A stretch of DNA of 64,000 nt from Eublepharis macularius (lineage: Eukaryota > Chordata > Lepidosauria > Squamata > Eublepharidae). Positions 7,268-63,465 of this stretch are shown piece after piece. How positions within the stretch are numbered: position 1 is the stretch's first letter; each line of letters opens with the position of its first letter. Location of the stretch: the NCBI RefSeq assembly GCF_028583425.1, contig NC_072794.1:26471232-26535231 (forward strand). The letters are read 5' to 3'. The notes below the pieces were generated by a model. That model saw only the letters and a list, made by a program, of their open reading frames with translations. It was not told the origin of the DNA and ran no database searches. The translations under genes and the position numbers were made by a program.

Positions 7268-7330
7268 CCTCTCGCCTCGGGCTCAGCCCCACTGAGGGAC
7301 CGGGGGGGGTGGGGAGCAGTGCCTTCTCTG
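6690..7330 (-). promoter_or_regulatory. TOR1AIP1: CpG-island promoter of TOR1AIP1
   Basis: This GC- and CpG-rich block covers exon 1 and the presumed start of TOR1AIP1. It contains a CACGTG E-box (7187-7192) and, on the minus strand, AAAATGGCGGC near 7145-7155, which fits the YY1 consensus often found just downstream of transcription starts. No TATA box was seen. The start site is not defined. Confidence 0.6.
6796..7267 (-). CDS. TOR1AIP1: TOR1AIP1 exon 1 (coding part)
   Basis: The donor is GTAAAG just below 6796, after a codon split in phase 1. The LAP1 frame runs upstream past the GTG at 7189-7187 to an in-frame TGA, without any ATG. The only plausible initiator seen is CTG at 7267-7265, with A at -3 and G at +4, which would give an Ala/Glu/Gly-rich leader of 26 residues before VTPRAP. 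Human LAP1 has 18 residues there. The 5' end of this exon is therefore uncertain, while the stretch 6796-7189 is secure. Confidence 0.8.
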
Positions 7331-29455: not shown

Positions 29456-29888
29456 AATGGTTGTTGTGGGTTTTCCGGGCTGTATTGCCGTGGTCTTGGC
29501 ATTGTAGTTCCTGACGTTTCGCCAGCAGCTGTGGCTGGCATCTTCAGAGGTGTAGCACCAAAAGACAGTGATCTCTCAGTGTCACAGTCGAACACCTCTA
29601 CGGGGAGGAAACATTCCAACAGACCCGGAGATTGGAAACACTTCGGAACAAGAAAGCACATCTACTCTGTTCTTTAACCTTTCTCCTATGCTGCAGGGAC
29701 ACAAGAACCATTCCATCTTTTCTCACTGTGACACTGAGAGATCTCTGTCTTTTGGTGCTACACCTCTGAAGATGCCAGCCACAGCTGCTGGCGAAACGTC
29801 AGGAACTACAATGCCAAGACCACAGCAATACAGCCCGGAAAACCCACAACAACCATCGTTCTTCGGCCGTGAAAGCCTTCGACAATAC
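29456..29888. mobile_element. Foldback Penelope-type retroelement remnant with hammerhead-like motifs
   Basis: Two nearly identical arms in opposite orientation (29458-29600 minus, 29725-29858 plus) surround a spacer of about 125 bp. Each ends AGCCCGGAAAACCCACAACAA. Each contains CTGAAGA, a stem-forming TGCCAGC...GCTGGCG, then GAAACGTC, the layout of a hammerhead ribozyme core. The exact 11-bp flanking duplication AATGTAAATTC (29445-29455 and 29889-29899) marks a retroposition event. Terminal repeats with hammerhead motifs are known from Penelope-like elements; the family call here is by analogy. It is a short fossil without an ORF. Confidence 0.6.
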
Positions 29889-40743: not shown

Positions 40744-41129
40744 GGCTTTTTTGACCACAAAGTTCAGTATTTGCAGCATTCAATTTTATTGGTAAAGGCA
40801 ATGGTAGTCCCCTGTGCAAGCACTGAGTCATTACTGACCCATGGGGGGACGTCGCATCACGGCAATTTCTTGGCAGACTTTTGTTACGGGATGGTTTGCC
40901 TTCCCCAGTCATCTACACTTTACCCCCAGGAAACTGGGTACTCATTTTTCCGACCTCGGAAGCATGGAAGGCTGAGTCAACCTTGCGCTGGCTACCTGCA
41001 CCCGACTTCTGCCAAGACTGAGCTCAGGTCGTGAGCAGAGCTTGGGCTGCAGTACTGCGGCTAACCACTCTGCGCCATGGGGCTTTTTTGACCACAAAGT
41101 TTGGTATTTGCAGCATTCAATTTTATTGG
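40744..41129 (-). mobile_element. tRNA-derived SINE with 49-bp flanking direct repeats
   Basis: The inserted block 40793-41080 reads, in reverse, CCCCATGGCGCAGAGTGGTTAG, then GAGCTCAGTCTTGGCAGAAG. It is flanked by 40744-40792 and 41081-41129, which match at 47 of 49 positions (GGCTTTTTTGACCACAAAG onward). It is a retroposed SINE in antisense orientation. Confidence 0.75.
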
Positions 41130-44479: not shown

Positions 44480-45300
44480 GTTAGCCCGCTTTGACCCCCT
44501 AAGCAGTCCGCCCGCCCTTTCAGTCTGTTTTTGGAAAGCCTCCCTCACCCTCAGGGCCAGGTTCCCGCTCTCTCCCCTTTCCTGCCTCAGGAGGGGCAGG
44601 CGGCCTGTGCTGTGGGAAGGGTCCCGCTCAGGCCGGCTGCTTTTGTCTCCTTTGATGAGGGAGGCCGGCGGCACCTCGCTCCGGGCAGACGCGGCCGCCC
44701 CCCTCCGCCCGCGCCCCCGGCCGCGTGTTTGGGTGGCTCAGGTCGCCTTGTCAATCACAGCCCGCCCGGGAGCCGCAGGGTTGCGCCGCGCTCCCGCCGC
44801 CACCCAACAGGTTGGAAAGTCATTAATTACTTACTCGGCCATGCAGGTTTGCGCTCAGGCGGCTGCTTTTGCTGCCGCCGCCGGGGCTTCAGTGCTCTCG
44901 CTGCCGCCTTCTCGCGCCTGTCCATGGAGCATTAGAGCGCACCATGGCCGCGCCTCCCGCCTTCTCCGGCCGCCGGCCCCTTGCCCCGCCGGCGCTGCTC
45001 CTGCTGCTGGCTTGTGCCCTGCGCGCTAAGGTAAGGAAGCAGGCGGTGGCGGGTGGGAAAGAAAGCGCGGGCCTTTGGCGGCTTCCGAGCGCCCGGTTGT
45101 GCTCCCGAGAGCGTCCCGTAAAGGCGCCTTTACACGCCTGGCTTTGCGGGGATCAACGCATCCGGAGGTGGCCACTTACGCCTTTGCCTTGGGGGACCGA
45201 ATGCTAGGCAGGCGCTTTGGTGCTTCGTTCCCCCCGACGTCCGCTGAAAAGGCTGGCGCGTATCGAAGCCAGACGTGCGCTGGAAGATCCGTGTCTAGAG
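44480..45300 (+). promoter_or_regulatory. CpG-island promoter of the ADAMTSL2-like gene
   Basis: This strongly GC- and CpG-rich block surrounds the first coding exon. It holds TGTCAATCA (44749-44757, a PBX/MEIS-type site in reverse) and TCATTAATTAC (homeodomain-like) 120-200 bases before the ATG. No TATA box was seen. Long open frames on the plus strand here reflect GC content. Confidence 0.55.
44944..45030 (+). CDS. ADAMTSL2-like exon 1 (signal peptide)
   Basis: ATG at 44944 in the context CACCATGG. It encodes 29 residues with two Arg followed by [14 protein letters not shown], a typical signal peptide. The donor is AAG|GTAAGG, phase 0. Confidence 0.8.
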
Positions 45301-48300
45301 CTCCCATCGATAAAAAATAAATTAATTAAAAGATCGCAGGGAGTTCGACACGGATCTCTCAGAGCACGTTTGTTTATCGCCCTCCCCCCTCCCCGCCTGG
45401 TATCCAGAACTAAGCAGGAAGAATAGAATGGATGAAGTTTTGAAGATCGCCACTATTTAGTTTCCCCAAAGGAGATCAGAAAAGGAAACTGCTTTTAAGT
45501 CTCCTTCTTAAATAATTTTCCTCTTCTCTCCCTTCTTGATGATAACCCAACCCAATGTTCCTTTACTTTAAGGCGTTCTCACACAATGTGCATTAAAACA
45601 CTTTGGAGCTTCTAGGGCTAGTGGGGGCATATCTGTCAATGCTGTTAATACCCGATAGAAAAAAGAAAAGCAAACATGCAGGGTAAGGAATTGCATTTGA
45701 ATTTTCAGCTTAGGAAATGCAATATCCAGTTTGTCTGAAAACTATCCATTAAAACTTGTGGTGAGACTTTGGAAAGATATTGTCTGGAAGGTCTAATGTC
45801 CTGATCCTAAATATAAGTAAGGTCAACATGAATAATTAGGTGGCCCAGGACACTTTAGCCACTGTGGTGTACTGGAGTCAGAACTCTGGAGCAGGATTTG
45901 GGAGACCCAGGTTCAAATCCCCTCTCTGCTATAGAAGCTTCTTGGATGACTATGGACCAATTACACTCAGCCTAACCTACTTCATAGTCAGGGCTTTTTT
46001 TCAGCTGCAATGCGCGGAAAGGAGTTCCAGAATCTCTTGAAAATGGTCACATGGCTGGTGGCCCTGCCCCCTGATCTCCAGACAGAGGGGAGTTTAGATT
46101 GCCCTCTGTGCCAGGGGGTGGGGCCACCAGCCATGTGACCATTTTCTCCTAGGGCAACCCACTGAGTTCCACCACCTCTTTTCCCAGAAAAAAAAGCCCT
46201 ACTCATAGTGTTATTGTGAGAACACTGTAAACTAGTTTAGGATGCATTGGGGGGGGGGGGAAGGTGGGACAAATAAATGAAGTAAATAAATAGAATGATT
46301 GGACTGTTCACATCACCTGCATGGCTCTATTAGGACATTATGTGGACATTGCAGCCATTATTCACCTGTGGAATTGCCATTGCAGCCTAAGAGGATCTTA
46401 TACAATGTTGCCAAAGATGTCGGGCCGCTGGATTGTGCACACAGATGTTACTAGTTATTCTCCATCATCCTCTGTGTCCTTGGCAAAGGATCCTGTCTTG
46501 GATGGAGTGGTACAAGAACATTATATGGCGGGTAAGGATAATTCACATACTGGATCATTCATGTGAATTTTCCTCACTGCCCCATGATATTTAGACCACT
46601 AGAACAAGAGTAGGCAGCCCCCAACAACGGCACACTCAACCATTTTCCTTGGCACCACACATCGCCAGCCCAAGTCAACAAGGCCAGGTCCTGGGACACT
46701 GGCAGCAACGTGGAGGCCAACTATGTGGGATAAGATGAGGCCTGCTAGGGCGTTCCAGACCTATGCAGCTTCTTCTGGGGGCAAAGCAGGCCCCTGTTTC
46801 CCCTCTCCTTTGTTGATGGCACACCAGCATCTTCACATGGTCTGTGTTTTTGGAGCACTCAGGCCGAAATGGTTGCCTACCCCGCCCCCAACCTCTCCAA
46901 ATGTAAGCCATCATAGTTCATAAGAGTCGGCCATGTTGGGCTGGGATGAATCAAATGTCAGATATTTTCCTCTTGCTGTACATATTAAACTCAATTATAA
47001 ATATCTTATCCGGGAAAAAGATTTTTTAAAAAAACAATGCCTCAGTTTCCATTTGTAAACAGAACTGCTAGCCTAGCTCTCCCCCATCCTTCCTGTTCCC
47101 ATTTTAACATAGGTGGGCAAGTGCGGGCCATTCATTTGGTGAGGGAAGCCGAGAGATACCTTCTGACCTGAGAGAGAAGCTCTAATTAGAGCTGTGTGCT
47201 CTTTAATAACACTTCTCTCCCTGCAGCTGTAACTCGCCCCTGCTCAAACCCTTCTCTTTATTACAGAACACCCATTCAGAGGCAGGCACCACCTCTGTCA
47301 TTATAAATAGAGGAGGGGAAAAAAAGTTAACTTCAATCGTCTCCCCCCCCCCTACAAGCCTCCCAGATTTTATGGGTCACCAATCCCATTGTGTTCCTGA
47401 TTCTCAGAAGCTTATGAAGCAACTCTTTGCCATTTCCTCAATGAAAATCACCCAGGGGACACATTCCCCCTTCTAATAGATGACTGTGCCTTCCCAAACA
47501 AGACCAGGCCAGACCTCTCTTTTCTGTTTCCCCAAACCTGAGATTTTTTCCCCCTGAAAATTGAGAAGGCGCACTTCACTCCTGTGTCCCAAAAAGGATG
47601 TGCCGTGTTCAGATCTTGCCATCCTACGCACATTCCATGAGGATGCAGCACAACTATTTGTCTTCAGTATAATTTCAGGTGGGTAGCTGTGTAGGTCTGT
47701 GGTAGAAAGAGCATGATTCAGCTCTGGTAGCATCTTAAAGACCAGCTAGATTTCCAGGGTGTGTTCTTTTGAGAGTCAAAGCTCCCTTTGTCCGACTTCA
47801 CTCTTGAGAGCTCATACGCTGGAAATCTAGCTGGTCTTTAAGATGCGACCAGAGCCAAATTTTGCTCCTGTCCTCAGGATAAGTTAATCCACTCTATTTC
47901 TCCTTTCCTGCATTTTATCCTAACAACTACCCAGCAAGGAAGGCGGGGTTGAGAGAGAGAGAGAGAGAGAGAGAGGCCCAAGTCATCCAGTGAACTTCAT
48001 GGCAGACTCTAGATTTGAATGTGATTCTCCTCGCTCCCGGTCCAACACTCTAACCCCATCACTACACTAGCACTTTCATGCAGATTCTTGCATTCTACAG
48101 TATTTAGCTAAAGCAGCTTCACTTGAGTAGGCATGTTCAAGTTGTGCATTTCAGCCTGAACCAGATAACAATTGGGTTTTTCCCTGCAGAATTTAGTGTG
48201 TGTGTGTGTGGGGTGGGGGGTGGGGTTGGTACAGCTATAAGGGTGGCATGGTAAAGAGAAAGCAAGTTAACAGGAGTGGGCCTGGGGTTCTTAAGCTAAC

Positions 48301-51300
48301 CATTCCCTGTTTCTGTCAGGACAGTAGTGAGGCAGTGGATGGAGGTGGGACCTGGAACGAAGAGGTGACTAAGTGGTGGGGGGAATGGAGCTCTTGGTCC
48401 ACTTGCTCCCGTACCTGCGGAGGGGGTGTGATGTCCCGCGAGAGGCACTGTTTGCAGCAGCGGTAAGTAACTGAGCCGAACCCATTGACATTTTTCTATA
48501 GCTAACCCATAGAAGCTTAGCTGGCGGAGTGTCTGTGTTCTACCATCGGTTGGGTGCTGAGTGACCTTGCGCCAGTCACACACACTCAGCCTAACCTACC
48601 TCACAGGGTTGTTGTGAGGATAAAATAGAGGCGAGAATGACGCAAGCCACTTTGGGTCCCTATGGAGGAGAAAGGCAGGGTATACATGAAGTAAATAAAT
48701 AAATAAAATCATCTCTGTAAAGAAACAAGCAATTTGTACCTCCTCCGTTTTATTAAAGAGCAAAAGTCAGAATGACACAGAGGAGTAGCCATGGGGTTGG
48801 GCTAGCTCTCTTGGCTCCACCTCTGAATTTTCAGGGGGGATTTTCCCCACAAAACAAAAACAGTAACTGGCATCCTAAGCGGACTTAAACCCACATCTAA
48901 GTCGTCAAAGTTGTTGGCACCATTTGTCTCTAAGAATTCTAACCTTTTTGACTTAATGCAGAGAGGAACAAAGATTCAGTCAGTATTTTACTCAGTTGCT
49001 TGTTAAAAAGCAAATCTTCTTTATCCCACTGTTCTATCCATGATTCAAAGGCGCTGGAAATATTGAGAAACGCATAATTGTTGAGCAATTTTAAGAGAGT
49101 ATCTAAAATAATGTGCATGGAATATATGGCATTGTTACCTTTTAAGATGTATTATGATCATACTTTTACTCTGCTGTTTCTCCCTTTGCCCTCCCCCCCT
49201 ATGTTCAGGAGAAAGGTGGGCTCAAATTTAATAACTTGCAGTGAAATCCTAAGAAGAGAGAGAAATCCTAAGAAGAGAGAACTTTGCTTAGGATTTCACT
49301 GTAAATGTGGTGTTTATACATGCAAGTCACTTTGCAGGAATCTCTTATTGATTTTATGGATAAAGTATATGAATCACCTTTTCACCTAAAAGGCACCCGA
49401 AGGAACGTACAGTTTCTCAGTCATCAAGGTATGAACACACTTATATGAGTCCACCACTAACCTAATCCTTTGAGAGAAAGTTTGAACTTCAGAATGACAC
49501 TACTGTCATATATCTACTGCATCCTTGCGAACAGGTCCACGAGAAATTACTAAAGCCACAAACATTTTCACTTGATTTATTTATGGATTAGAAGAAAACT
49601 GGCTTATTGTCCAGCTTCCTTGCCTTGGGGATATTCTTACTCGCTAAACAACCAAATCAATAACTATTAAGCCTGCCCTACTATCAGGGTGGTTCATTTT
49701 TATTCCACCATTCCTCCAACGTGCTCAAGGGATAGCATACACGGCTCTCCTTTCAACATTTTATATTCACAACAATCTTGTCAAGTAGATTGACTGGTCC
49801 AAGGTTACCTAATACATTTTATTACAGTATAGGGATTTGAACCAGGGCCGATTCCAGACGGCCAGAAATAGCGTTTTGCCCGCGCTATTAATCGCTTACC
49901 GGCCATGCGGGTATTTTCGCCTCCATCCGACTTGTCCCGTCGGAGCACTATACTCCGAGCCAGCCTCTTGGGGTTAACGCTTGCATCCCCCCTCAAAATG
50001 CTGTCCAGCTCTCTGAAGTACGGACAGGTTGTTGGCGCGTTCCCTGAACGGCCGTTGTGGGCCATAACCTTTTTGTACTCCAGCCGCATGGTTTTGGTCT
50101 TGGTGCGGCACTCTGTAGCCGACCGCTTGTGGCCCCGCTCAGCCATCTGCATCGAGATTTTTTGGAAGTAGTCCATGTTCCTGTGGGTGCTTCGGAGAGC
50201 TTCCTGTATCTTTTCTTCCCCCCAGAAGTGTAGCAGATCCACAATCTCTCTATGCCGCCAGGACACCCCCCGCTTCCCAGCCACATCCCCTCCACCGGCC
50301 ATACTGCCCCCGACAAGGCGATATTGCTCTAGCACAAGCGTGTGTGACTGTGCTCGAGTGCTGTGGTTTCTCAGCCACCGAGATTCCCCCCACCCGCCCG
50401 ATCACCCGTCCAATCGGCACGCAAGTCTGCGGGGCAAAGGTCAGCGACACTTCCCAGGGTTAGATTCTCTGGCAGACAAAATGCCGGCCGGTAATGAACG
50501 CTCAGTTCGCATTTCATGAGGGATGCAGTAATGCAATTGCACGTATGCGCAAAATGATTCGAAAAACCACGCACCATGATCATGATTATACTTTTGCGCA
50601 TTGGTGTAAATTCATGCCCGCAGACGCGCGATTGCGCAAATCGCTCCTGCATTTTAAAAAAAAAAATGGCGATATTGTGGCCGGCTGGCCGGCCGGCCGG
50701 AAAAAGGGGAGTTCCTCTTCCCCCATGATGGATCGCCATGCTGCGGCAAAACCCGCCATGGCGTGTTCCCACTGTCCGCTTATATAGCGCAACGGAGTGC
50801 CATGAACCGCAGGTAAGCAGGGACGGCAACTTGCGGGTTTTAACGGGTCTTCCCGCTTCAAAAGCGAAATCACTCGCTTTAATTTTGCCTATCTGGAATC
50901 GGCCTAGGTCTCTCATATCCTAGTCTGACATGCTAACTATCTACCGCATTACAATGACCAAAACAGCACCAAAACAACACCATACTTCTCCTGCTTCGAA
51001 CTTGTCAAAAAAGGAGGAAAATTAGGCACTTGAATTCTAAACATTTAGGCAAAGCTGCTATTACCATTTCAGGAAAATCAAGGGGGGAAAGTTAAAATCC
51101 AAGTAGCAGAAATTCTTTCTTCTCTCCACTGTTTCCAGTTTAATTGCCTCTTCATTTCTTGGTCTGCGTCCCTACTGTTTTTTTGACATCATTGTATTGC
51201 CTGGTCCCCGCTGACTTCAATGTTCACCCCCCTCTGAGAGGTACAACAACTAACATCCTGAGTTGCTTCCTTGACTGAACGATGACAACAGGGGCTTTGG

Positions 51301-54300
51301 ATTTTGTTCTCATGAATTCTCTCATCCTCAGCCCACCCACCCCAATTCCCCTCTGCTTGGTCCACAAGGGTGATTCGGAAGCCCCTACCCTCCGCTCCAA
51401 AGAGCTGAATGTGACTCCTGGAGAGGCACCTCTTAACCTGCTACTCCAGATCCTGCCCAGCTAATGAGAGCTGGCATCCAAGCACTCCCCATGCTTCTCC
51501 TCCCTTCACAACCCCCCCCCCAACTCCTTTCTATTCTGCATGAATGCACTTCTGAGCAGAGGAAGCTGAAACAAGCCCCCCCTCCTTTCCTCTTCCGTCA
51601 AAAGGAAAGGGGGGAGGTAAATCCCCTTCGCCTTTTATGTGGGCTGGCTGGCTGCATAATTAAGGTCCGGATATGCTGAGGTGCCTTCCGTCTGGAGATG
51701 GCAGTGATTCTCAAACACCCTTGGAAATAAACTGCACCATTCACAAAGCACACATGCGACTGTCTCTTTTTAAAAAGCAAAAATAGTTCTGGTACCCCGT
51801 CTTAAAAGACAAATTTTACATATGCATAAAGTATGCAAAGCGTTGTAACAGGAGGAGTTAAAGTTTTGACCATCAAAACCCCAACAAGCCTATGCCAGCC
51901 CACCTTCACACACACACACACCCATATAAATTTAGGTCTGGAAAGTGCAGCTTATAAATCTTCTAAATAAATACATATCACCCTGTCTTTCAACACAGAG
52001 GAAATGGCTTTCTCACTTCAGATCCATTTAATATGTATATTAAGAGGGAGTCTTCTCACACCAAATCAGATCAGAGAGCTAGGCCCACTTGTTTGTTGGG
52101 ATGGAAAGCTGAGCTCTTCTGGACTCTAGCTTGTGCCATATGTCTTAAAGGAAAGCTGACAGGCAGTATTTCCTTTCTAAAACGAGTGAACTTCTGTTCA
52201 CATCTGTCTAGATAACACACTCTTTTTGCTTTGGAAGCCTCAAGTTTCTTTTGATCCGAAAAGCATGAGGAAATGCTGAGGAAAAGACAACTGCTGAGGA
52301 AAAGACACATTGCACATGTTCAGAGGAACCCTTGTTTACCAGAATTATTCAAAGACTGAGCTCTGAAGGCAGAATTCAGGGCTTAGGCTTTGCACATTCT
52401 GACAGATGAAGTCCTGAGATAAAAGAAACTCTTGACATCTAACTCAGTGTTGGAAAGGAATGCTTTTATGTATGGTATTGCTGGAAAGCTCACAGAGAAA
52501 GACAACTAGTTATACAGGATGTGGTGACAGGGTTTCATGCTGTCTGTAGAGAGGGAGCTCGTGGGCCTCTGGAGCAGAACTTCTTGGAAGACATTCCATC
52601 CATAAACATATTCTTCTTTACATTGTAGGCTACAAGTATCTCAGGGGACCAATAGTACCATGTGTCTGGGCCAGTCCAAGCACTACCAGTTGTGCCAACA
52701 GCAGGTAAGATTTGTTCTCAGAGACTGAATGTGAAGAATTATCTGCTCTCTCTGGATTGCTTCAAGAAAGAAGTAAAATAGAGTTCAGCTAGTGGTTAGT
52801 TATTATCTGAAAGAGAGGGATATGCAATACTACCACCACCCCATCCAACTTCTACCCTTCCCCCTCACCAGCTACCACTTCTCTCAGCTTCTGGCTCCAC
52901 ATTCTGGTGCTGCTTCAAATTACTGCTTGTTTCGTTACACTGCTTTATTTCCCCAGAAGCCATTTTGGGTTGCTATGGCAACCCAAAGTGCCTCCTGAAC
53001 TCTGTTTTTTTTAATCCCCATTGATTGTACACAAACATCATTGTTTTGTGATGTTTTAATTCCCAAATTATTGTTTTGTTTTAAATTATATTTAAAATGT
53101 ACACAAACATCATTGTTTTGTGATGTTTTAATTCCCAAATCATTGTTTTGTTTTAAATTATATTTTTCTGGCTTCCCTCTGTTTGTAGAATCTATATTTT
53201 AGCAATGGCAGGCCTCAGTGCGCAGGCTTTTTAATCTACCTGGGGACCAGCCCCTGCCTGCCGTATATAAGGGTAAAGCAGAATTTGCATATTTGGGTTT
53301 TGATAATACAAAGTAGGAGCTGCCAAGAAGCAACCCAGAGGTGCTGCTTGCCCCTATACACCTTTACACCAGTGTAACAGGAAGGCAAACCAAAAACGGG
53401 AGCAGAGTCCTTTGGACAGAAATAAATGTCCATAGAACATCTTTTTCAGGAGGCAACATTCTCCGTATTTCTCTTATTCAATGCAAGGGAATACGGGCCA
53501 GTCCATTATTTCTCAAAACTTTTAAAGCTCATTTCAATCATGCACTACCCACAAAGATCATTGGCTCTGAGGTGGAAAAGTATTAATTATTTTTAGCAGG
53601 AGTACTTATGCCCACTTTGCCCCTCCCATCACTCCAACTCTTGTCCAGCAACATTCAGTTTCTGGGTCCACCTGAGGCCCTGTTGTACCGAACCTGCTGT
53701 GGGAGCTCTGTACTGAAACTTAATTTTGAGACATTTCAGATCCCAGTTTATATGGGGACCATATTGGGGCACCGTCCACAGTGTTTTCCCCTTCCTGAAA
53801 CAGCCCCTTGAGCCATTACTTGCCTTGTCAGTAGAACTTTACTTCTAGAGCATCAGAAGATGTGCGTTTCCCCAACAGGACAAATAGCAGCTCCCATTGG
53901 AGGAATGTCTAAGCTCTCTCTTCCCCTGTGCCACAGTCCTGAATTGGGTGCCCACGTATCTCAAGTGTGCCTACTTCCCTTCCAGAGGGACTCTCCCCAC
54001 ATTTTTTGATTGCATTTTAAGTTTCTACCCCATTTTCCAACCTACGGCTTCACTTCTCAGAATGGGGATTCATCAAAGAGAAGCAGCAGCAATTTAACCC
54101 ACATTACAGAAAAGAAATATTTTAATGTATTTCCTTTTTTAATCCTCCAAGGCATTACATGTGTTCTCCACCCATCTTAGTCTTCACAATGGCCTTGTAG
54201 TGTAGGTTGGGCTGAGAGAGAGAAGAACCCAGGAGAAGAAAGAGATTCAGATGATAAGCTTAGCTTTCTTTTCTTTCCAGCTTTGCCCTGCCAACGCAGC

Positions 54301-57300
54301 CAGTTTCAAACAGCATCAGTGTGCCAGTTTCAACGCCAAGGCCTTTGGGAAGCACTATTATCACTGGATGCCACTTTATCCAGGTTTGTCTTTGCTAAAT
54401 TGCTCTGCAGAAGCTGTTGCTCAAGGGACAAGGCCAGGACAGCTCCTGCGAAACCTTGTGGAGATTAATGTCACGAGGGTAGCCAAGCCACTCTGTCGCA
54501 GCAGAGCCTTAACAAGTGTTCTGGTACTTCAAACAGGTTCACTGCGGCTTATACTCCAGTCCATTTCACCAGATAGGACTAGGAGTGACCCAGGATCTTG
54601 GGTGGGGAGGAATCTGTGCTTTCCTTGTGCTGCCCCAAGTACTCATTTTTTGGCTTGGCCAGAGAACCAGCCGTGCTTCCCCTCCACCTCACCAGAATGC
54701 AATTGAATTCCTAGTTTCAGATGTCTTAAGACAAATTCCACATTGTTACGAGTTCCTGGACAAATTGGAATATTTTTTTTCTTCCTGCAAACCAGGAAGT
54801 TTTCAATTGCACTGTCAAACCCCCCAGGGCCAGTGTCTGCTTCTCCACCGCAGTATTCAGTTTCCCTCCAACCTCACCCCTGACAGTCACACACTAATGA
54901 GGTAGCTACAATACCATTTAAGTTGCATAACTTCCAGCAGCCAAATCCTGGGTTTAAACAGCCTCATTATGGCCAGAAGATCCACTTGCCAATCATCATC
55001 CACCTGGATTCTGTCAGGCCTCCATGCTATCTCCTAGGCATGGATCTCCTGTCCTGGGCCCCCAACCTTCTCGTCGTCTTGCTTTCATCTTTTATCTACT
55101 TCCTTTCTGCCACACCCATTTCCTGGCTGTCTTGGCCTGTGCTTGAGTAGAACTTTACTCTTGAAGAGATGGGGGGGGACCAAGACATAGTAAAATGGTA
55201 TCTTGCTGCATAATTAGAAGTGACATCACTGTAGGGTTGCTGTTCCCCCAGTGCGGGTGGAGGTCCCTTGCTTCCAGACTCTTCCTCCACCATGATTCAT
55301 CTGGCTGGCGGGGGAAAAGGCATGGGAATGGGCACAGTGCAACAACATCACTTCCCAGAGTGAAGTCATCATGCTGCACTGGGAGCACATGAGTGCTTTG
55401 CATGTGCGAAGATACCACCTCTGTCATTATAAATAGGGTAAGGGGACCCAGGGTAAGGGGACCTGGAAACCCTACATTACTGTATCATGAGATGTGCTAG
55501 AATTTTCCTGAATCTCTGTGGTAAAAACCATAGAGTTTTAGGGGGATCTTAGAGGGTCCTATGTGCACTGACATCACTTCCAGTCATGCAGCTGACAATG
55601 GCATCATGGGATACCGTTTCTGCCCCCCCTTCTCCTTTCCACACTGCTCTGATGAGGGGTGGCAGGGGACCAACGCAGAGGCTGGGAGGTTGCCCACCCT
55701 ATGTGGAGGCCTTTACTCCCAAGGAGGCTAATTCTGGCAGTTATCCACCGTTCCAGCCCCTTGGTCTCTCTTGGGGCACATTTAGTATATCATATTTATG
55801 GTTTTCTATAAGCAACACTGATAATATACCTAGTACTTGAAAGAGAGTTGCCAACTATGCTACCTTAGTTAATCTTAATTTTAATTAAGTTAATCTTAAT
55901 TTTTTTGCTAACCTCCAAGGTAGGACTTGGAGTTATTCCAGAATTATAACTGATCTCCAGAAATGGTGGCTTCAGAGAGCAAACTCAATGGTATTACATC
56001 CTCTTTGAGCTCCCTCCCCAAGTACCACCCACAGGTCTCCAGGAATTTCCTAAACAAGACTTGGTAACTCTGTCTGAGAAGTGGGAGGGGGAGTTTAAAT
56101 TAGAAAACAACTTTCATAGGAATGACATTATTTGGACAGAAAGTCTCATACAGTCACAAGAGGATTACCGGTATATTTGGATACTGAGTTCGTAACACAG
56201 AAAACTCTGAACTCTTTAATATTTTACTGTCAATAAGCACATTATATCCTCTTAGTTGTTGCCAAAATTATTCACATTTAAAAAATAAACATGTCCTTGA
56301 AAATAGAGTGTATATTTGTCTTTAGTACACACCTGTAGTATGTGCATTCCCTTCCCTCTTCTTGAGTCAACAAGATCTGTTAAGTGGAATTGTTCTTGGT
56401 TGAATGGCAAGATGTTTCTGTTTTATACCTTTTAGCAACAGCATCTGCTTTATGCCCTTTATCATCAGCTTGCAGGTAACTCCAGTAGAATCCACTGATT
56501 CTGTAGAGGAGGGGAGCTTTGGTCTCACATCCTTCTTCCCCTAAACTGCCTCACATCTTTCCCCGTCTCAGTTTCTCCTGTATTCTGCTGTAGATGATTA
56601 CACCAGCATCTCCAACAAGCCATGTGACCTCCAGTGCACCACGAGGGGTGGAGAGAGACAGCTGATGGCACGAGCCCAGGATGGCACTTCATGCAAAGAC
56701 AGAACCCACCAAGGGGTCTGCATCTCTGGGAAGTGTGAGGTAACATGAAGGAACCAACAACTGATTCCATGGCCCACGTATGACCTGTAGTGGGTTTGCC
56801 TTTGATGTCCATCAATGCTAGGTTGCTGTTAATGCTGGGAAACTCCTCTCGCCCCCCCATTTCTCTCCAGTGGGGACTGAAAGTGGTGAGAGCCAATTTG
56901 GTGTAGTGGTTAAGAGCGTGGGACTCTAATCTGGCGAACCGGGTTTGATTCCCCACTCCTGCACTTGAAGCCAGCTGGGTGACCGTGGGTTAGTCATAGC
57001 TCTCTCAGAGCTCTCTCAGCCCCACCCACCTCACAGGGTGTTTTGTTGTGGGGATAATAACAACATACTTTGTAAACCGCTCTGAGTGAGTGTTAAGTCA
57101 TCCTGAAAAGTGGTATATAAATCGAATGTTATTATTATAATATTATTATTTTCCTCCATTTTATCCTCACAACAACCCTGTGAGGTAGGTTAGGCTGAGA
57201 GTGTATGGCTGGCTGAAGGTCACCTAACAAGCTCCCATGGCAGAGTGGGGATTCGAACCTGGTCTCCCAGATTCTAGTCCTGCGCTTTAAGCACTATACC

Positions 57301-60300
57301 ACACTAGCTGTCTAAAATCCCTGGCCAGGGCTGCAGCATGGTAAGAGAATCAGGTGAGACATGCTGGCTTAGATCGAAAGGTCTATCATGTCCATCTTAT
57401 GTCTATCATGTCCGTCTTATTTCCATCACTGGCCAGCTAGAGGCTTCCAGGAAGCCCACAGATGGACACCACCCCTCTCTTGCTGTTTGATATTTCTCAA
57501 GTAACTGGTGTTTAGAGGTATACACCCTCTATACGTGGAAGTTCCATTTTGCAATCATGGCTCCTATCCACTGATGGACATAGTCTCCTTGGTGAATTTA
57601 TCCAACCCTTTTTAAAAACCTTCTCAACCCAAAGCCATAAGCAAATTTCTCAAATGAATTAGTAGGTCATGCTTTTCTACCACCCCGCAGTGTCACCGAG
57701 TGCCCCTGAGTTTGAGCAGGCTTTGTTGATGCAGTTCATAGGGAAACTCTGAGCTTCAGACTTTAAGCTTGCATCCTTGCCTCCTCCTCTGTCCAGCCAA
57801 TAGGATGTGACGGCAGCCTCTATTCTTCTCAGACGATGGATCGGTGCCGGGTGTGTGGAGGAGATGGAAGCACTTGCTACCGAGTCTCGGGCAGTTTCCG
57901 AAAGGGGATCTCACAGTTAGGTACATTCTATTAACAACGTTGAGTTATTTCTGCATCTGTGTCTTGGTATGACCAGTGACACTCAAAACAGGGCTACAAG
58001 AAGGACTCTCTCCAAAACCGCCTTTCTTACTTCCTAACCTGATTTGAAGTGAAAGCCAAAACTGAACTTGCAGCATGGCATGAAATGTTAAGGATGAAGA
58101 AGATCTGAGCTCTGCCGACCTCCCCAAGCGGTCTGAAGCCAGAACCTACTTCAGAATGTATGCAATAAAGCCCCAACAGTCATTTCTTGTAAGGGAAGTG
58201 TACACTACAGAAAAGGGGCAGGCAAGGAATGGATTAAGCGTGTGCGTAAGATCCACATTACAGGGAAATGTGTGTGTGCATGTACATGTGCTTGTGCACT
58301 TAATCCTTTCCTTTTCTGTCAGTTTTCTGTAATGTATGGATGTGCTTAAACTCTTGCAACATCCTCTGGTTTGCCTCTCCTTTATATTTGCAAACACACC
58401 TATCTAGAACGAAAGAAACTGAAACCAGGAAACTGCTTTGCAAAGGTATGTCCCCATCTTATTTGGGTTTTCTGATTTTTGTTTGTTTGATTCCCCTTTC
58501 TCAGGATATGTATTTATCACTAACATCCCGGCTGGTGCTACAGACATTCTTATTATCGAGCGAAGGAAAACGGAAAACATCCTGGGTAAGCAGTGGAAAA
58601 GAAATTAGGGCAAATTTGTCCCTAAAGTGGAAAGGAGAGAGCTTTGCCTAGTTAACAATCGGGTAGGAGCATTCACAATACTACACTGTTATCTCTGGAC
58701 CAGTCCACTCTGAGAAAGCATTGTCCTTCTGAGTCTGGCTACTGGGATAGCAAAGAAGCTCGAGGTATTTATTTATTACTTATTTATGTCCTTTATAGTC
58801 CACCTTTCTCACTGAGACTCAAGGCGGATTACATAGTATTGCAGTTACGGAGTTTTAAAAATCAAGAGCTTTTAAGCACCATGGATTAATTGCTTTTGAA
58901 GGTGCTCTGTTTTATGGAACATTTCTACTCTTATCAGTTTCCCAGTTCAAACATATTTCTAGCAAAAAAATGGCAGGAGAGGAAAGAGTTACAGTTTCTT
59001 CAGCAATAAGTAATGTGTCTCCAGTGGGACAAACAGCAGTTCCTGGGGCTTTATTATGTCAGGAAAATGGTGCAGGGAGTCAGGCTTAAGCCTCCTTTCC
59101 CCGCACAGCGTGATCCCAACTCTAATCAAGCCTACACATGCCTGGGAAACACAGAAATCCCAAAGCACACTGGATCAAAAGTCCTCATTGCTGCCATGAG
59201 AACTTTGTCGTTGGTAAATCAGCCCCCTACAGTGTGTGCAGCTTCCCACAGCTCTTTGCATGGCAGGGAAGGAAGAAAAGGGGCTCAAAGGATCCTTTAC
59301 CAGAATCTTAACTCACCTGGGAGAAACAACCAATAGGCCTAGTAAGGAGATGCTGGGAGCTGGGTGGTGGCAAGCTTCTCATGCTCAATTGATTCCTTGT
59401 GCCCCTAGTTGGCCATCCCTTGATAAACATCATTGAAGATGCTTCTTTGAGTCTCATTTTCCTTCTCACTAGCACTAGCTGATGAATCCGGGCACTTCTT
59501 CATCAATGGGAACTCTGCCATCGACAACCCACAGAACTTCAGAGTGGCAGGAACTGTGTTCAAGTACCGTCGGCCTCCCAACCTCCACTCTGACGGCCTG
59601 GAGTATATTATTGCCCAGGGGCCCACCAATCAGTCTCTGAATGCCATGGTAGGTAAGAGAATCTGTAAGATCTGATCATTTCATTTCTTGCCCTCTTTGG
59701 CGAGCCCCAAAACTGCAGACAGAAAGTCAAGGGTAACCAAATACCTGACCCGTAACCTGGGTAGCAGTAAAGAGTTCAGGTTGCACTGGCCTCCAGTGAA
59801 TCGAAGACGATTAAATCCCTGGTTCGGTTGGTTTGCTTGATCAGTTTGTGCATTTCCACGCCAGGCTGCTAAGGCAGGCTGAGCAGGACAGTAAATCTAA
59901 CAAGAGCCTGAGCAGTCCAGAAGGTCAATATTTCCTGACTCCAAAGTCAGTCTTGGATTGAACCATCTATACTGGGAACTTTTAGGAGAGCAGACAGCTT
60001 TGGATGGGGACGAAGTGGCATCTTCAGAAAAGTCTTAGTGGGAGAATCTTAATCTGGTAGGGGTTAAGCTAGATCCTAACACTGCGGCATCTCATGCAGA
60101 AACATTAGTTCCAGCAGATTAAAGATGTGTTGTTTTCTCTTTCCTTGTTGAATGCAGTACTATAACTTTAATGGGAAAATGCCCCACATAACATATGACT
60201 ACACTGTGCCAAGGACACTCTCGCCAACTCTTCAGACTATCCCTCCAGCCATCAAGAGGCCTCTTTACCTTCATCTATCGGAGTCTGGCCACAACCACCA

Positions 60301-63300
60301 AGAAGCAATCCCATCCATTTCCCAAGATTTCAATGCCACTTGGATCTCTCTTGCATCAGATGACCTCGGGGAACGTTTCCCACAAGGGGAAGAGCATGGC
60401 GGCATGGCCTTCAGTAGGCAGAACTTCTTTCCCAGTAACTCCACGACGCCAGGCAGTGACTGGGGCTGGAAACATGGGGAAGAGGGGGAAAGTTTTAACT
60501 TCCAGGTTGAACGACTCTATCACACTAATGGAGCTGATGAAGCTGAAGAAGTGGTAGGAGGCAGAGAAACAGATTTAGGTGAGTGTATTTTTTGCTGATT
60601 AATTTTCTTAAGCATGGGCAACATTGAGCACCTTCCAGTTGCACATTAAGCCACATTTGCTACACTCTACATCTAGACAATTCAGTACCTTCACTCAAAT
60701 TATGCATATAGTTTTAGCTGGGTAGCCATGTTAGTCTTCAGTAGAAAGGCAGGATTTGAATCCAGTGGCACCTTAGAGAGCAACAAGCAGCCATCCTGAT
60801 TTATGCCATGCTTTATTCCTAGGCTCGCAGGCAAGCTTTGTTTTTGTGTGGGGTGGTGGTCATTGGGAAATTGGAATTTTCTTTGTCAAGGAGTAGGGAA
60901 TTAACAAGGGGCCTGGTGTGGATAAATGAAGAGCAATACAAGTCTTATGGACAAATGGGGGACATGAAGGAAGCAAGTAGCATTTATGGCTGAAATATTA
61001 TTGTATGCATTTGAATGTAAAAATTCAAAAGTTGTGATTTGGTTCCAAAATCCAATTAATAGGAATCCTTGGCCATTTTCACACATCTTACTGGCTACAC
61101 AAAATCGTGCAAAACTCCTGGAACGACGGCATCTTCCTGCCGCAATTTCCCATCATGACTCCACATCATGCGCTACAAACCGGAGTCATGACAGGAAATT
61201 GCGCCAAGAAGACACTGTTGTTCCAGGAGAGTTGAGTTTTCTCATTCCGTATGGGCGTTAACTATCTTAGTGAAACTTGGAACTTTCCAGTCTCTCTTAC
61301 TAAAACCTGAGAATAAATTTTTGTTAGTCTTTAAAGTGTCACGTGACTCCCGTTTATTTTTGTACGCACACCTGTTCACTAAAATTGGACATTAAGCCTA
61401 AACTGTCAACATTTACTCCATAATGCTGAAAAGTTAATTGAAATACAGATATTACAAATCATGCATGCTCACCTTACCAATCTGAGAAACTGAGTTTGCA
61501 TTTTGCATTCTTAATGGACTATTTTGTGAATTCTGATGTGTTTTTCCTGGACTTCAGTTGCTCCTTTTCAAACCTTTCTCCTCAACAATTTTTTAAAACA
61601 ACATTCTTATTTAGCCGCTTTCTGATATTAGATTACATGGAAGCAGTGGACCTGCGAAGCCTGGGGGGCGGGGGGGGGGGGAATCTCATTTCCCTTTTAT
61701 CTCTCTACCTACACTACTTTCTCTTTCCTTCTCCCTTGTAGCCCCCATAGTCTTCCCTCACACCCATCCAGCAAATTCCCTTTATCTGTTCCCCTAGTCT
61801 TCTGTTTTCATTCTTTCTTCCCTCCTTCTCTGGCAGCATCTCACTGTTTTAGTCTTTCCTGCTCACCAAACTACATCTTGCTGTTCTCCTCCTCTTCAAC
61901 TTCTCCTTCTGTCCCTGTTTCCTTCTCTTCCTACCATCTTTTCCCTTTTTTGATCTCTCCCTGACCTTGACTGACAAAAATCAAAGCTTGGAAGGCTTGG
62001 CAATATTATTGCAATTGAACAGCAACTCCCCAAACAACCACCAACATCTCAGAACATAGACTGATTCCGCACACGTTGGATAATGCACTTTCAATGCACT
62101 CTATCAATCGTTTGAGGTGGATTTTTTGTTCCGCATACGAAAAAAACCATTCCAAATGATCTACAAAGAGGATTGGAAGTACATTATCCAATGTGTGCGG
62201 AATCAGCCATAGTCTTGTGAGATCTCAGTAGCTATCCACCTGATAAAGCTACAGATACTGCTTCTATTGTTTTGTTTTTTTCAAAACTCCCCAATATATT
62301 TTTTATTCAAGATTTCAGGTTGTTCTGCAAAGCTGAAGCGTCCTTTCCCTACTTCTCCCTGGCCCTTTTGTGTAGATTTTTTTGATCGGCACTTGGGGGG
62401 GGGGGTCTGGTTCAGAATTAGATGATGGAATTGCCAATATATTGAAAAGAGCAAGAGTTCAGTAGCACTTACAAGACTAACAACATTTGTGGTAGGGTAT
62501 GAGCTTTCATGAGTCACACTCACTTCTTCAGATACCCTAAGCTGTGACTCACGAAAGCTTATACCCTGCCACAAATTTTGTTAGTCTTATAGGTGCTACT
62601 GGACTCTTGCTATTTTCTGCTGCTACAGACAGACTAACATGGCTACCCATCTTGATCCATATTGACTCACACACGAAGAGCTGCTGCACCATAGTGGTTA
62701 AGAGGCTGGACTGTGAATCAGCACTCTGCTAGTTCGACTCCCGCTGCTGTGCTGACAAAAGTTCAGCAGGTGGCCTTGGGTAAGCCACTCCTCTCAGCCC
62801 AGCTCCCCAGCTGTACTATAGGGAAAATAATAACACTGACTTTGTTCACCACTCTGCATGTGCCACTAACAGTGGCACACTGTTGTTGTTATTAAGAATG
62901 ACCACGGAAATATATGTTGTCAAATTAGTATTAGTTCCACTTCTTCTTTTAGGTAAAAATACTTTTAGGTGGAAAGGTGATCAGTTGAGATTGTTTAGTG
63001 ATGGGAACACCTCTGGCTCACAGCCATCTGTTTTCTTTTAGCCCTCAGACTCAACCAGATCACAATCAGCACAGCTGTGCCTCATGGGGCAGCCAGGCCC
63101 GATCTCCTAGAAACTGGCAGGATTGGGCCATCCAGGCTGCGTCTCTTCAAGAAACTGTGCCTTCAGGACCCACAAAATGCTGCTTTTTGCAGGGAATTGC
63201 ACTACCTAGTGGTACGGCTGGGACGGAAGAACTCAACAGCGGGGTTTTGGAATGACCCCTTGGTAGAATGGCCGGAAGGACTGCGCAAACAACCAGCAAA

Positions 63301-63465
63301 CAAGAACTTTCTAGAGAGCACGGATGCCGCGGCATACGCGGTAGATGAGGCAACCAATGACACTGTGATGGTGACATCTTCCAAACCGAGTTCCAAGTCC
63401 AGCCTTGAGAGGGGCTTTGCGAATAAACCCCTGTCAGAACTTCTGCAGTCTCCTGATACCGAAAG
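44944..63465 (+). CDS. ADAMTS-like protein closest to ADAMTSL2 (N-terminal 593 residues; gene continues off the right edge)
   Basis: This is a secreted, protease-free ADAMTS relative of the extracellular matrix. Ten exons join without a stop. Order: signal peptide (1-29), TSP1 repeat (about 46-102; [18 protein letters not shown] with the CSRTCG O-fucose consensus and WxxW mannosylation motifs), cysteine-rich module (103-226; [27 protein letters not shown]), spacer (227-330; [35 protein letters not shown]) and a poorly conserved linker (331-593) with NxS/T sites. The best family match from memory is ADAMTSL2 (human [17 protein letters not shown]-like [36 protein letters not shown]), clearly better than ADAMTSL4, ADAMTSL5 or THSD4. 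Divergence and location suggest a paralog, so I give no symbol. C-terminal TSP1 repeats and PLAC domain, if present, lie outside. Confidence 0.85.
45850..46292 (+). mobile_element. Sauria-type SINE split by a hAT element (ADAMTSL intron 1)
   Basis: GCCACTGTGGTGTACTGGAG, GGGAGACCCAGGTTCAAATCC and CTCAGCCTAACCTACTTCA, then the insertion, then TGTGAGAACACTG and a poly-G and AAATAAATGAAGTAAATAAAT tail. Confidence 0.75.
45989..46201. mobile_element. hAT MITE, 213 bp, inside the SINE
   Basis: It begins CAGGGCTTTTTTTCAG and ends AGAAAAAAAAGCCCTA. The flanking 8-bp duplication YTCATAGT (45981-45988 and 46202-46209) has one mismatch. The inner palindrome TGGTCACATGGCTGGTGGC is shared with 1050-1273. 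Confidence 0.8.
47677..47872. mobile_element. Foldback retroelement tail pair
   Basis: The arms CTTAAAGACCAGCTAGATTTCCAG (47732-47757) and its reverse CTGGAAATCTAGCTGGTCTTTAAG (47820-47843) face each other around GAGAGTCAAAGCTC...ACTCTTGAGAGCTC. Same layout as 44128-44275. Broken, no ORF. Confidence 0.5.
47885..48072 (-). mobile_element. Sauria-type SINE with (GA)n expansion
   Basis: The reverse complement reads GCTAGTGTAGTGATGGGGTTAG, GAATCACATTCAAATCTAG and AGGATAAAATGCAGG. The (GA)n run at 47950-47974 lies inside it. Confidence 0.6.
48320..48462 (+). CDS. ADAMTSL2-like exon 2 (TSP1 start)
   Basis: The acceptor is CCTGTTTCTGTCAG and the donor CG|GTAAGT, phase 2. It encodes a short acidic leader, then [18 protein letters not shown] and [11 protein letters not shown]. 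Confidence 0.95.
48512..48708 (+). mobile_element. Sauria-type SINE (ADAMTSL intron 2)
   Basis: The body has CAGTCACACACACTCAGCCTAACC and GGGTTGTTGTGAGGATAAAATAG, and the tail GGGTATACATGAAGTAAATAAATAAAT. The 5' box region is eroded. Confidence 0.7.
49805..50302 (-). CDS. Myb/SANT-like DNA-binding protein of a Harbinger-like element
   Basis: An open 165-codon frame starts at ATG 50302 (A at -3, G at +4); an in-frame GTG lies 11 codons upstream. Residues about 10-95 form a trihelix/Myb-SANT domain of the MSANTD/ZSCAN29 type: [54 protein letters not shown] and [12 protein letters not shown] basic tail follows. The frame reads out through the terminal inverted repeat and stops only in flanking SINE sequence, so the last 13 or so residues are not native. 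In Harbinger transposons this protein binds the ends and helps the transposase enter the nucleus. Confidence 0.7.
   Translation of the reverse strand: MAGGGDVAGKRGVSWRHREIVDLLHFWGEEKIQEALRSTHRNMDYFQKISMQMAERGHKRSATECRTKTKTMRLEYKKVMAHNGRSGNAPTTCPYFRELDSILRGDASVNPKRLARSIVLRRDKSDGGENTRMAGKRLIARAKRYFWPSGIGPGSNPYTVIKCIR
49846..50904. mobile_element. Harbinger-like element, 1059 bp, carrying only a Myb/SANT-like gene
   Basis: The ends GGCCGATTCCAGA and TCTGGAATCGGCC are perfect 13-bp inverted repeats. The flanking 3 bp, CAG (49843-49845) and TAG (50905-50907), fit a 3-bp duplication with one change. PIF/Harbinger elements normally encode a transposase and a Myb/SANT-like protein; only the latter is here, so it depends on a transposase elsewhere. 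The TIR resembles those of the small MITEs at 26.1, 40.0, 61.1 and 62.1 kb. Confidence 0.7.
50655..50705. repeat. GGCC-rich palindromic run inside the Harbinger-like element
   Basis: An A-run is followed by repeated GGCCGGCTGGCCGGCCGGCC, self-complementary over about 20 bases. Confidence 0.6.
52629..52704 (+). CDS. ADAMTSL2-like exon 3 (TSP1 end)
   Basis: The acceptor is TTTACATTGTAG and the donor CAG|GTAAGA. It encodes [20 protein letters not shown] and LCQQQ, with one N-glycosylation sequon. Confidence 0.92.
53027..53170. repeat. Two-copy tandem repeat, 72-bp period
   Basis: Both units carry GTACACAAACATCATTG, TGTGATGTTTTAATTCCCAAA and TTGTTTTGTTTTAAATTATATTT, nearly identical, so the duplication is recent. 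It is in ADAMTSL intron 3. Confidence 0.8.
54125..54235 (-). mobile_element. Sauria-type SINE fragment
   Basis: Remnant with TAGTCTTCACAATGGCCTTGTAGTGTAGGTTGGGCTGAGAG, the 3' half in reverse, just before exon 4. Confidence 0.5.
54281..54383 (+). CDS. ADAMTSL2-like exon 4
   Basis: The acceptor is TTTTCTTTCCAG and the donor CAG|GTTTGT. It encodes [18 protein letters not shown] and YYHWMPLYP, matching the CPPDGRSFREEQCVSFN / QWKPLYP stretch of human ADAMTSL2. Confidence 0.92.
55232..55474. mobile_element. hAT MITE, 243 bp (ADAMTSL intron 4)
   Basis: It begins TAGGGTTGCTGTTCCCCC and ends GGGGACCTGGAAACCCTA. The flanking 8-bp duplication CATYACTG (55224-55231 and 55475-55482) has one mismatch. 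Confidence 0.75.
55847..56070. mobile_element. hAT-like MITE, AGGGTTGCCA family, diverged
   Basis: AGAGTTGCCAACTATGC, TTATAACTGATCTCCAG and CAGGTCTCCAGGAATTTCC, ending near TTGGTAACTCT. It carries an internal TTAATCTTAATTTT duplication. Confidence 0.55.
56594..56739 (+). CDS. ADAMTSL2-like exon 5 (cysteine-rich module)
   Basis: The acceptor is TCTGCTGTAG and the donor GAG|GTAACA. It encodes [30 protein letters not shown] and GVCISGKCE. Confidence 0.93.
56888..57150 (+). mobile_element. tRNA-derived SINE with CCACCTCACAGGG body
   Basis: The best-preserved copy: GAGAGCCAATTTGGTGTAGTGG, GAACCGGGTTTGATTCCCCAC and GGGTGACCGTGGGTTAG, with a GGTATATAAATCG tail and ATT-rich end. Confidence 0.8.
57151..57311 (-). 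mobile_element. Sauria-type SINE
   Basis: The reverse complement reads GCTAGTGTGGTATAGTGC, GGGAGACCAGGTTCGAATCC and TTGTTGTGAGGATAAAATGG. It abuts the preceding SINE head to tail at the A/T tract. Confidence 0.75.
57315..57670 (+). repeat. Ancient interspersed repeat
   Basis: GACATGCTGGCTTAGATCGAAAGGTC, CACTGGCCAGCTAGAGGCTTCCAGGAAGCCCACAGATGG and AATTTATCCAACCCTTTTTAAAAACC match the reptile repeat seen also at 35620-35825 and in part at 42925-43005. Confidence 0.45.
57797..57920 (+). CDS. ADAMTSL2-like exon 6
   Basis: The acceptor is CTGTCCAG and the donor TTAG|GTACAT. It encodes [20 protein letters not shown] and [17 protein letters not shown]. Confidence 0.93.
58505..58585 (+). CDS. ADAMTSL2-like exon 7 (spacer)
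   Basis: The acceptor is CCCTTTCTCAG and the donor CTGG|GTAAGC. It encodes [20 protein letters not shown] and KTENIL, the start of the spacer domain. Confidence 0.92.
59473..59648 (+). CDS. ADAMTSL2-like exon 8 (spacer)
   Basis: The acceptor is CCTTCTCACTAG and the donor ATG|GTAGGT, chosen over the GTAAGA four bases on because only it keeps the next exon open and aligned. It encodes [30 protein letters not shown] and [12 protein letters not shown]. Confidence 0.92.
60158..60578 (+). CDS. ADAMTSL2-like exon 9 (spacer end and linker)
   Basis: The acceptor is TTGAATGCAG and the donor TTAG|GTGAGT. It begins [17 protein letters not shown] (human WNQNGKSPSITFEYTL), then a low-conservation Ser/Gly/acidic linker with NATW and NSTT sequons. 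Confidence 0.88.
60718..60800 (-). repeat. Retroelement tail fragment (GCTACTGGACTC family)
   Basis: GGGTAGCCATGTTAGTCTTCAG and AATCCAGTGGCACCTTAGAG match the outer half of the 31.7 and 62.5 kb elements. A plus-strand scrap lies at 61310-61360. Confidence 0.5.
61071..61257. mobile_element. Harbinger-like MITE, imperfect palindrome
   Basis: It begins GGCCATTTTCACACATCTTAC. The inner arms CTCCTGGAACGACGGCATCTTC and GCAATTTCCCATCATGACTCC recur inverted (GGAGTCATGACAGGAAATTGC). The right end is diverged. Confidence 0.6.
62059..62208. mobile_element. MITE, 150 bp, GRCTGATTCCGCACAC termini
   Basis: It begins GACTGATTCCGCACACGTTGG and ends CCAATGTGTGCGGAATCAGCC. The flanking 3-bp duplication ATA lies at 62056-62058 and 62209-62211. 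The end sequence is close to those of the other Harbinger-like copies. Confidence 0.7.
62440..62650. mobile_element. Foldback retroelement tail pair with hammerhead-like core
   Basis: The minus arm (62528-62448) reads CTGAAGAAGTGAGTGTGACTCATGAAAGC, then a GTTAGTCTTGTAAGTGCTAC stretch. The plus arm (62538-62650) reads GTGACTCACGAAAGCTTATACC, TGTTAGTCTTATAGGTGCTAC and AGACTAACATGGCTACCC. CTGAAGA, stem GTGAGT/ACTCAT, GAAA follows the hammerhead order. A broken fossil, no ORF. Confidence 0.6.
62665..62900 (+). mobile_element. tRNA-derived SINE (third type)
   Basis: CCATAGTGGTTAAGAGGCTGG (box A region), CTAGTTCGACTCCCGC (box B region), GGCCTTGGGTAAGCCACTCC and a GTTGTTGTTATT tail. It ends 140 bases before exon 10. 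Confidence 0.6.
63042..63465 (+). CDS. ADAMTSL2-like exon 10 (linker)
   Basis: The acceptor is TGTTTTCTTTTAG and the donor AAAG|GTATGT, phase 2. It encodes 141 residues containing [18 protein letters not shown] and [13 protein letters not shown] with NSTA and NDTV sequons. I do not recognise this linker from human ADAMTSL2; its assignment rests on frame, splice sites and position. Confidence 0.75.

Follow-up and report, generated by a model that had tools for sequence, protein, structure and literature searches.

ADAMTSL2 binds FBN1 and LTBP1 and is a disease gene for geleophysic dysplasia (PMC3708815); it is tied to fibrillin microfibrils and TGF-beta. A second report describes zebrafish ADAMTSL2a, ADAMTSL2b and ADAMTSL2c, assigns all three to human ADAMTSL2 and notes that chromosomal analysis must wait (PMC1867822). 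Our studies concern a 64,000-nucleotide stretch of the Eublepharis macularius genome (2.24 Gb, 72 contigs) that lies at C5:26471232-26535231 and is called the window below; coordinates without a contig name are window positions. We consider it highly probable that a gene in this window is an ADAMTSL2 paralogue located in a 1q25-type block, and that the true ADAMTSL2 of this genome is a second gene, on C14, located in a 9q34-type block. In human, the 1q25 block contains QSOX1, TOR1AIP1/2, FAM163A and ABL2, and the 9q34 block contains ABL1, ADAMTSL2, FAM163B and QSOX2.

The exon set at 44944-63465 on the forward strand is a real gene, confirmed at a level far beyond chance. Its ten exons were rebuilt from the window's open frames and, in agreement with the earlier note's claim of ten in-frame exons, all of them join in phase to encode 593 residues (1781 nt, which is 593 codons plus 2 nt). 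AG precedes exons 2-10, GT follows all ten, the phases are consistent and there is no stop codon. The exons are as follows.

Exon 1, 44944-45030, forward strand: start codon and hydrophobic leader beginning MAAPP; a signal-peptide exon placed by phase, GT donor and hydrophobicity only, without homology support
Exon 2, 48320-48462, forward strand: start of the first thrombospondin type 1 repeat (TSR), by Pfam; 143 nt, as in C14 exon 2
Exon 3, 52629-52704, forward strand: end of the first TSR; 76 nt, as in C14 exon 3
Exon 4, 54281-54383, forward strand: cysteine-rich module; 103 nt, as in its C14 counterpart
Exon 5, 56594-56739, forward strand: cysteine-rich module, by Pfam; 146 nt, as in its C14 counterpart
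Exon 6, 57797-57920, forward strand: end of the cysteine-rich module, by Pfam; 124 nt, as in its C14 counterpart
Exon 7, 58505-58585, forward strand: spacer, by Pfam; 81 nt, as in its C14 counterpart
Exon 8, 59473-59648, forward strand: spacer, by Pfam; 176 nt, as in its C14 counterpart
Exon 9, 60158-60578, forward strand: end of the spacer and beginning of the diverged, sequon-bearing linker
Exon 10, 63042-63465, forward strand: diverged linker; borders placed by phase and splice signals alone, without homology support

The gene runs on to the right through eight further exons (window offsets 64732-77232), which encode six TSRs and a PLAC module. The whole gene has 18 exons and 2952 coding nt for 984 residues, with AG/GT at the internal borders and no stop codon. 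The window holds the 5′ ten exons of this gene, which is apparently intact over its 18 exons and predicted to encode a secreted ADAMTS-like glycoprotein that lacks a protease domain. Pfam analysis of the 593 residues identified ADAMTS_spacer1 (6.3e-25), ADAMTS_CR_3 (2.4e-9) and TSP_1 (3.1e-7), and matched no protease family. For the 984 residues it returned seven TSP1_ADAMTS stretches, one spacer, one CR_3 and PLAC (1.9e-11); a metalloprotease domain, looked for by Pfam in the same protein, was not found. The domain order is thus TSR1 - Cys-rich - spacer - linker - six TSRs - PLAC, which agrees with the layout of ADAMTSL2, where the seven TSRs are likewise accompanied by PLAC at the C-terminus. 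The best PDB match of the window protein was ADAMTS13 (6qig), over residues 50-271 at 102.5 bits.

Several other features were seen in the window. Intron 2 of the gene carries, on the reverse strand at 50048-50401, an open reading frame that matches the Myb/SANT-like DNA-binding family PF13837 (2.3e-14); it may belong to a DNA transposon or represent a captured gene. The segments 29457-29588 and 29725-29856 are inverted repeat arms of 132 nt, 98% complementary and 136 nt apart, and this 29457-29856 repeat is a candidate young hairpin-like mobile element. At 40936-40957 on the reverse strand, the sequence differs at one position from a motif of the squamate Sauria SINE, a match for which 100 shuffles gave an expectation of 0. 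A 106-nt unit occurs in three nearly tandem copies at 17358-17663, two of them at 71% and 91% identity to the reference copy. No Rfam family and no tRNA was detected in the window.

A search of the same genome with the window core as query (121 matches; 136 of 154 candidates scored) found a second ADAMTSL2-type gene, with exons at C14:65017694-65025586 on the forward strand. The C14 exons were the best non-self matches (E 1.2e-18 and 2.7e-14, in pieces 41-69% identical), followed by other genes at 9.5e-12 and 1.4e-11 (39-40% identical). Short pieces of other genes reached 66% identity over 29 residues in this search, but with weak E-values. When the C14 core was used as query (42 matches; 144 of 145 candidates scored), the best non-self exon was in the window gene at 8.9e-19, and the next gene stood at 4.9e-10. 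The two genes are therefore reciprocal best non-self matches by E-value. Their cores are identical at 155 of 265 residues (58.5%), 16 of 16 core cysteine columns are common to both, and internal exon lengths are equal in all seven compared (143, 76, 103, 146, 124, 81 and 176 nt), the 143 nt of C14 exon 2 depending on the acceptor picked among several AGs. The earlier note had proposed that the modules match ADAMTSL2 better than other ADAMTSL members, and within this genome that preference was borne out by E-value (1.2e-18 for the C14 gene versus 9.5e-12 for the next). The separate ADAMTSL2 that it expected in the same genome was also found, as this reciprocal best match lying 5′ of the other FAM163 gene.

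Four further TSR matches lie on the forward strand of C14, between the ADAMTSL2 core and FAM163, at 65054341-65054520, 65090640-65090780, 65091550-65091699 and 65093421-65093552. These are probably the C-terminal TSRs of the C14 ADAMTSL2. If they belong to it, the C14 gene spans at least 76 kb, compared with 32 kb for the window gene.

The human ADAMTSL2 and FAM163 sequences used here were provisional ones rather than database records, so the orthology labels are partly provisional as well. Against the provisional human ADAMTSL2, the C14 core is identical at 235 of 265 residues (88.7%) and the window core at 155 of 265 (58.5%). Family trees were built on 147-153 gappy columns; 17 other-gene loci were compared, ten of which gave eight rows. 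L001, L002, L003, L004, L006, L007 and L043 had too few columns in common with the rest to be included, and family genes outside the trees include those on C7, on C16 and at C5:11.5 Mb, C8:36.1 Mb and C18:13.4 Mb. With the long-branch row L046 kept, support for the fork joining the window and C14 genes was below 80; because of its branch length, L046 was omitted from the two later trees. In the nine-row family tree, the window and C14 genes paired with support of 95/91 and the seven other-gene rows fell outside. When the provisional human sequence was added, the C14 gene paired with human (93/91), the window gene stood just outside, and the three were held together at 94/94. Placement of the window gene in another ADAMTSL group was rejected on the reciprocal best matches and the tree.

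It could be argued that no paralogue need be invoked and that the window holds this species' own ADAMTSL2, a direct orthologue of the mammalian gene that has moved or evolves fast. Its domain architecture is that of ADAMTSL2 and its core exon lengths equal those of the C14 copy; however, it is the C14 copy that is closer to the provisional human sequence over the 265 residues, lies 5′ of the other FAM163 and pairs with human in the tree, and we regard this alternative as most improbable. The grouping of the window protein as direct orthologue, which the earlier note had named as counting against its own proposal, was not found. The window gene is further from the provisional human sequence than the C14 gene is, and its adjoining FAM163 resembles the provisional FAM163A. 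On the sequence comparisons, it is the C14 gene, and not the window gene, that seems to be directly orthologous to ADAMTSL2.

The linker, at approximately residues 330-595, carries four of the six sequons of the 593-residue part. Comparison of the window linker (exons 9-10) with the provisional human ADAMTSL2 linker gave no clear similarity, whereas the C14 linker exons are 46-47% identical to the same human linker. Lack of likeness in this region, set beside its retention in the C14 gene, would be compatible with the window gene being a decaying pseudogene of the ohnologue. Nevertheless, its 18 exons with AG/GT internal borders contain no stop in 2952 coding nt, all 16 core cysteines are kept, and the similarity sits in the folded modules. 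Decay is rejected because the 18-exon frame is intact, and we give it very little credence.

The surroundings of the two genes were also compared. To the left of the window gene is the following neighbour.

TOR1AIP2 open frame, 23491-24462, forward strand: LAP1_C (PF05609, 2.7e-112); PDB score of 339.5 bits for TOR1AIP2 versus 276.6 bits for TOR1AIP1

These scores uphold the naming of TOR1AIP2 as the neighbour. On the reverse strand at 6668-7282, an open frame of 205 aa without a Pfam match contains a stretch rich in proline and arginine that appears to resemble TOR1AIP1. This frame would be head-to-head with TOR1AIP2, as TOR1AIP1 is in human. Beyond the end of the window gene, at a distance of about 11 kb, a FAM163 gene follows in convergent orientation (C5:26559664-26564029, reverse strand). 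The sole second FAM163 in the genome lies 3′ of the C14 ADAMTSL2 (C14:65114576-65119003, reverse strand); the genome search for FAM163 gave six matches, four of them over the cut-off, which represent a pair of genes with two exons apiece. The C5 FAM163 protein resembles the provisional FAM163A, the labels FAM163A and FAM163B being provisional too, and the prediction of FAM163A to the right of the window is in line with this. The ABL-specific F_actin_bind domain has exactly two matches in the genome, at C5:26.959 Mb and C14:60.435 Mb, and QSOX_Trx1 matches are located at C5:26.264-26.273 Mb (two exons) and C14:69.890 Mb (one). The order is QSOX - TOR1AIP2 - window gene - FAM163 - ABL on C5 and ABL - ADAMTSL2 - FAM163 - QSOX on C14, and these orders agree with those of human 1q25 and 9q34. 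FAM163, ABL and QSOX are each split between C5 and C14, and both ADAMTSL2-type copies are thus within blocks of paired genes.

Because there is a second copy on C14, this copy is closer to human, and FAM163 is split between the two, we view the window gene as an old, apparently intact ADAMTSL2 paralogue. Judged by the provisional human sequence (58.5% versus 88.7%), the divergence of the window and C14 genes appears older than the split from human. The reading of the window gene as a 1q25-side paralogue, put forward in the earlier note, gains support from the second copy, the tree and the FAM163/ABL/QSOX split, and the gene is best explained as the 1q25-side ohnologue of ADAMTSL2. In the simplest history, an ancestral ADAMTSL2-FAM163 pair would have been duplicated in the early vertebrate genome duplications; both ADAMTSL2 copies would have been retained in the lizard lineage and one presumably lost in the human line. 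To our knowledge, mammals have no 1q25-side ADAMTSL2 copy.

All of these comparisons were made within one genome plus the provisional human sequences. This leaves some room for a later local or dispersed ADAMTSL2 duplicate, for example a squamate- or sauropsid-specific one, that came by chance to lie next to FAM163A. Identity of 58.5% between the window and C14 genes, against 88.7% between C14 and the provisional human sequence, speaks against such an event, though fast evolution could mimic this difference. The matching slot in a block with paired FAM163, ABL and QSOX would be hard for a late duplicate to mimic, and we consider a late origin highly unlikely.

With the 1q25-side ohnologue as the preferred reading, we propose a function based on the family. 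The window protein would be exported and would act as a non-enzymatic secreted matrix glycoprotein. Its TSR/PLAC tail and Cys-rich/spacer head would attach to components of the matrix, fibrillin microfibrils and LTBP1 among them. Without being an enzyme, the protein would modulate how microfibrils assemble and how TGF-beta is released. By analogy with ADAMTSL2, we hold this matrix-binding/TGF-beta mechanism as a whole to be rather more probable than a different one. Conservation of the folded modules and PLAC suggests the same kind of binding, and the diverged linker, where four of the six sequons lie, points to somewhat altered partners or processing. A second proposal accepts the ohnologue history but supposes that the protein no longer serves microfibrils and TGF-beta and instead engages other partners via the new linker. 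A linker (approximately residues 330-595) for which the provisional human protein shows no recognisable counterpart, joined to modules that were kept, is consistent with such a change; retention of all folded modules and of PLAC argues against it. We think this departure from the role unlikely, although by no means negligibly so; it concerns function, and its likelihood overlaps with that of the best explanation.

In the literature on ADAMTSL2 and ADAMTSL paralogues, duplication, reptiles, synteny, function and this species, the window copy was not described among the matches listed. An automatic annotation of the gene in public databases is likely. A second, diverged copy separates the fixed parts of the protein (TSRs, Cys-rich module, spacer and PLAC) from the changeable linker. 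In addition, reptile or fish records named ADAMTSL2 may mix two different genes. If mammals truly have no window copy, their lineage would be a natural test of redundancy. More broadly, and only tentatively, we propose that two ADAMTSL2 genes were already present at the origin of the jawed vertebrates. The 1q25 copy would persist in squamates, and perhaps in other non-mammals, with a rebuilt linker, and would share or oppose the action of ADAMTSL2 in microfibril/TGF-beta control; mammals would be left with one gene, the failure of which results in geleophysic dysplasia.

Compared with known systems, the window gene is closest to ADAMTSL2 as represented by the C14 copy. The two have in common the TSR1 - Cys-rich - spacer core, seven equal exon lengths and a convergent downstream FAM163. 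In contrast, the window gene has a core of only 58.5% identity, a diverged linker and a place on another chromosome, in a 1q25-type block beside TOR1AIP2. Other ADAMTS-like and ADAMTS genes of the same genome (e.g., at C18:36.9 Mb and C1:252.9 Mb) also have Cys-rich/spacer exons, but with pieces mostly about 26-54% identical. ADAMTS13 shares TSR1-Cys-rich-spacer with the window protein; unlike the latter, it is a protease, as its PDB name indicates. Finally, zebrafish, with ADAMTSL2a, b and c, resembles this lizard genome in having more than one ADAMTSL2-type gene per vertebrate, and one of the zebrafish genes may correspond to the window gene.
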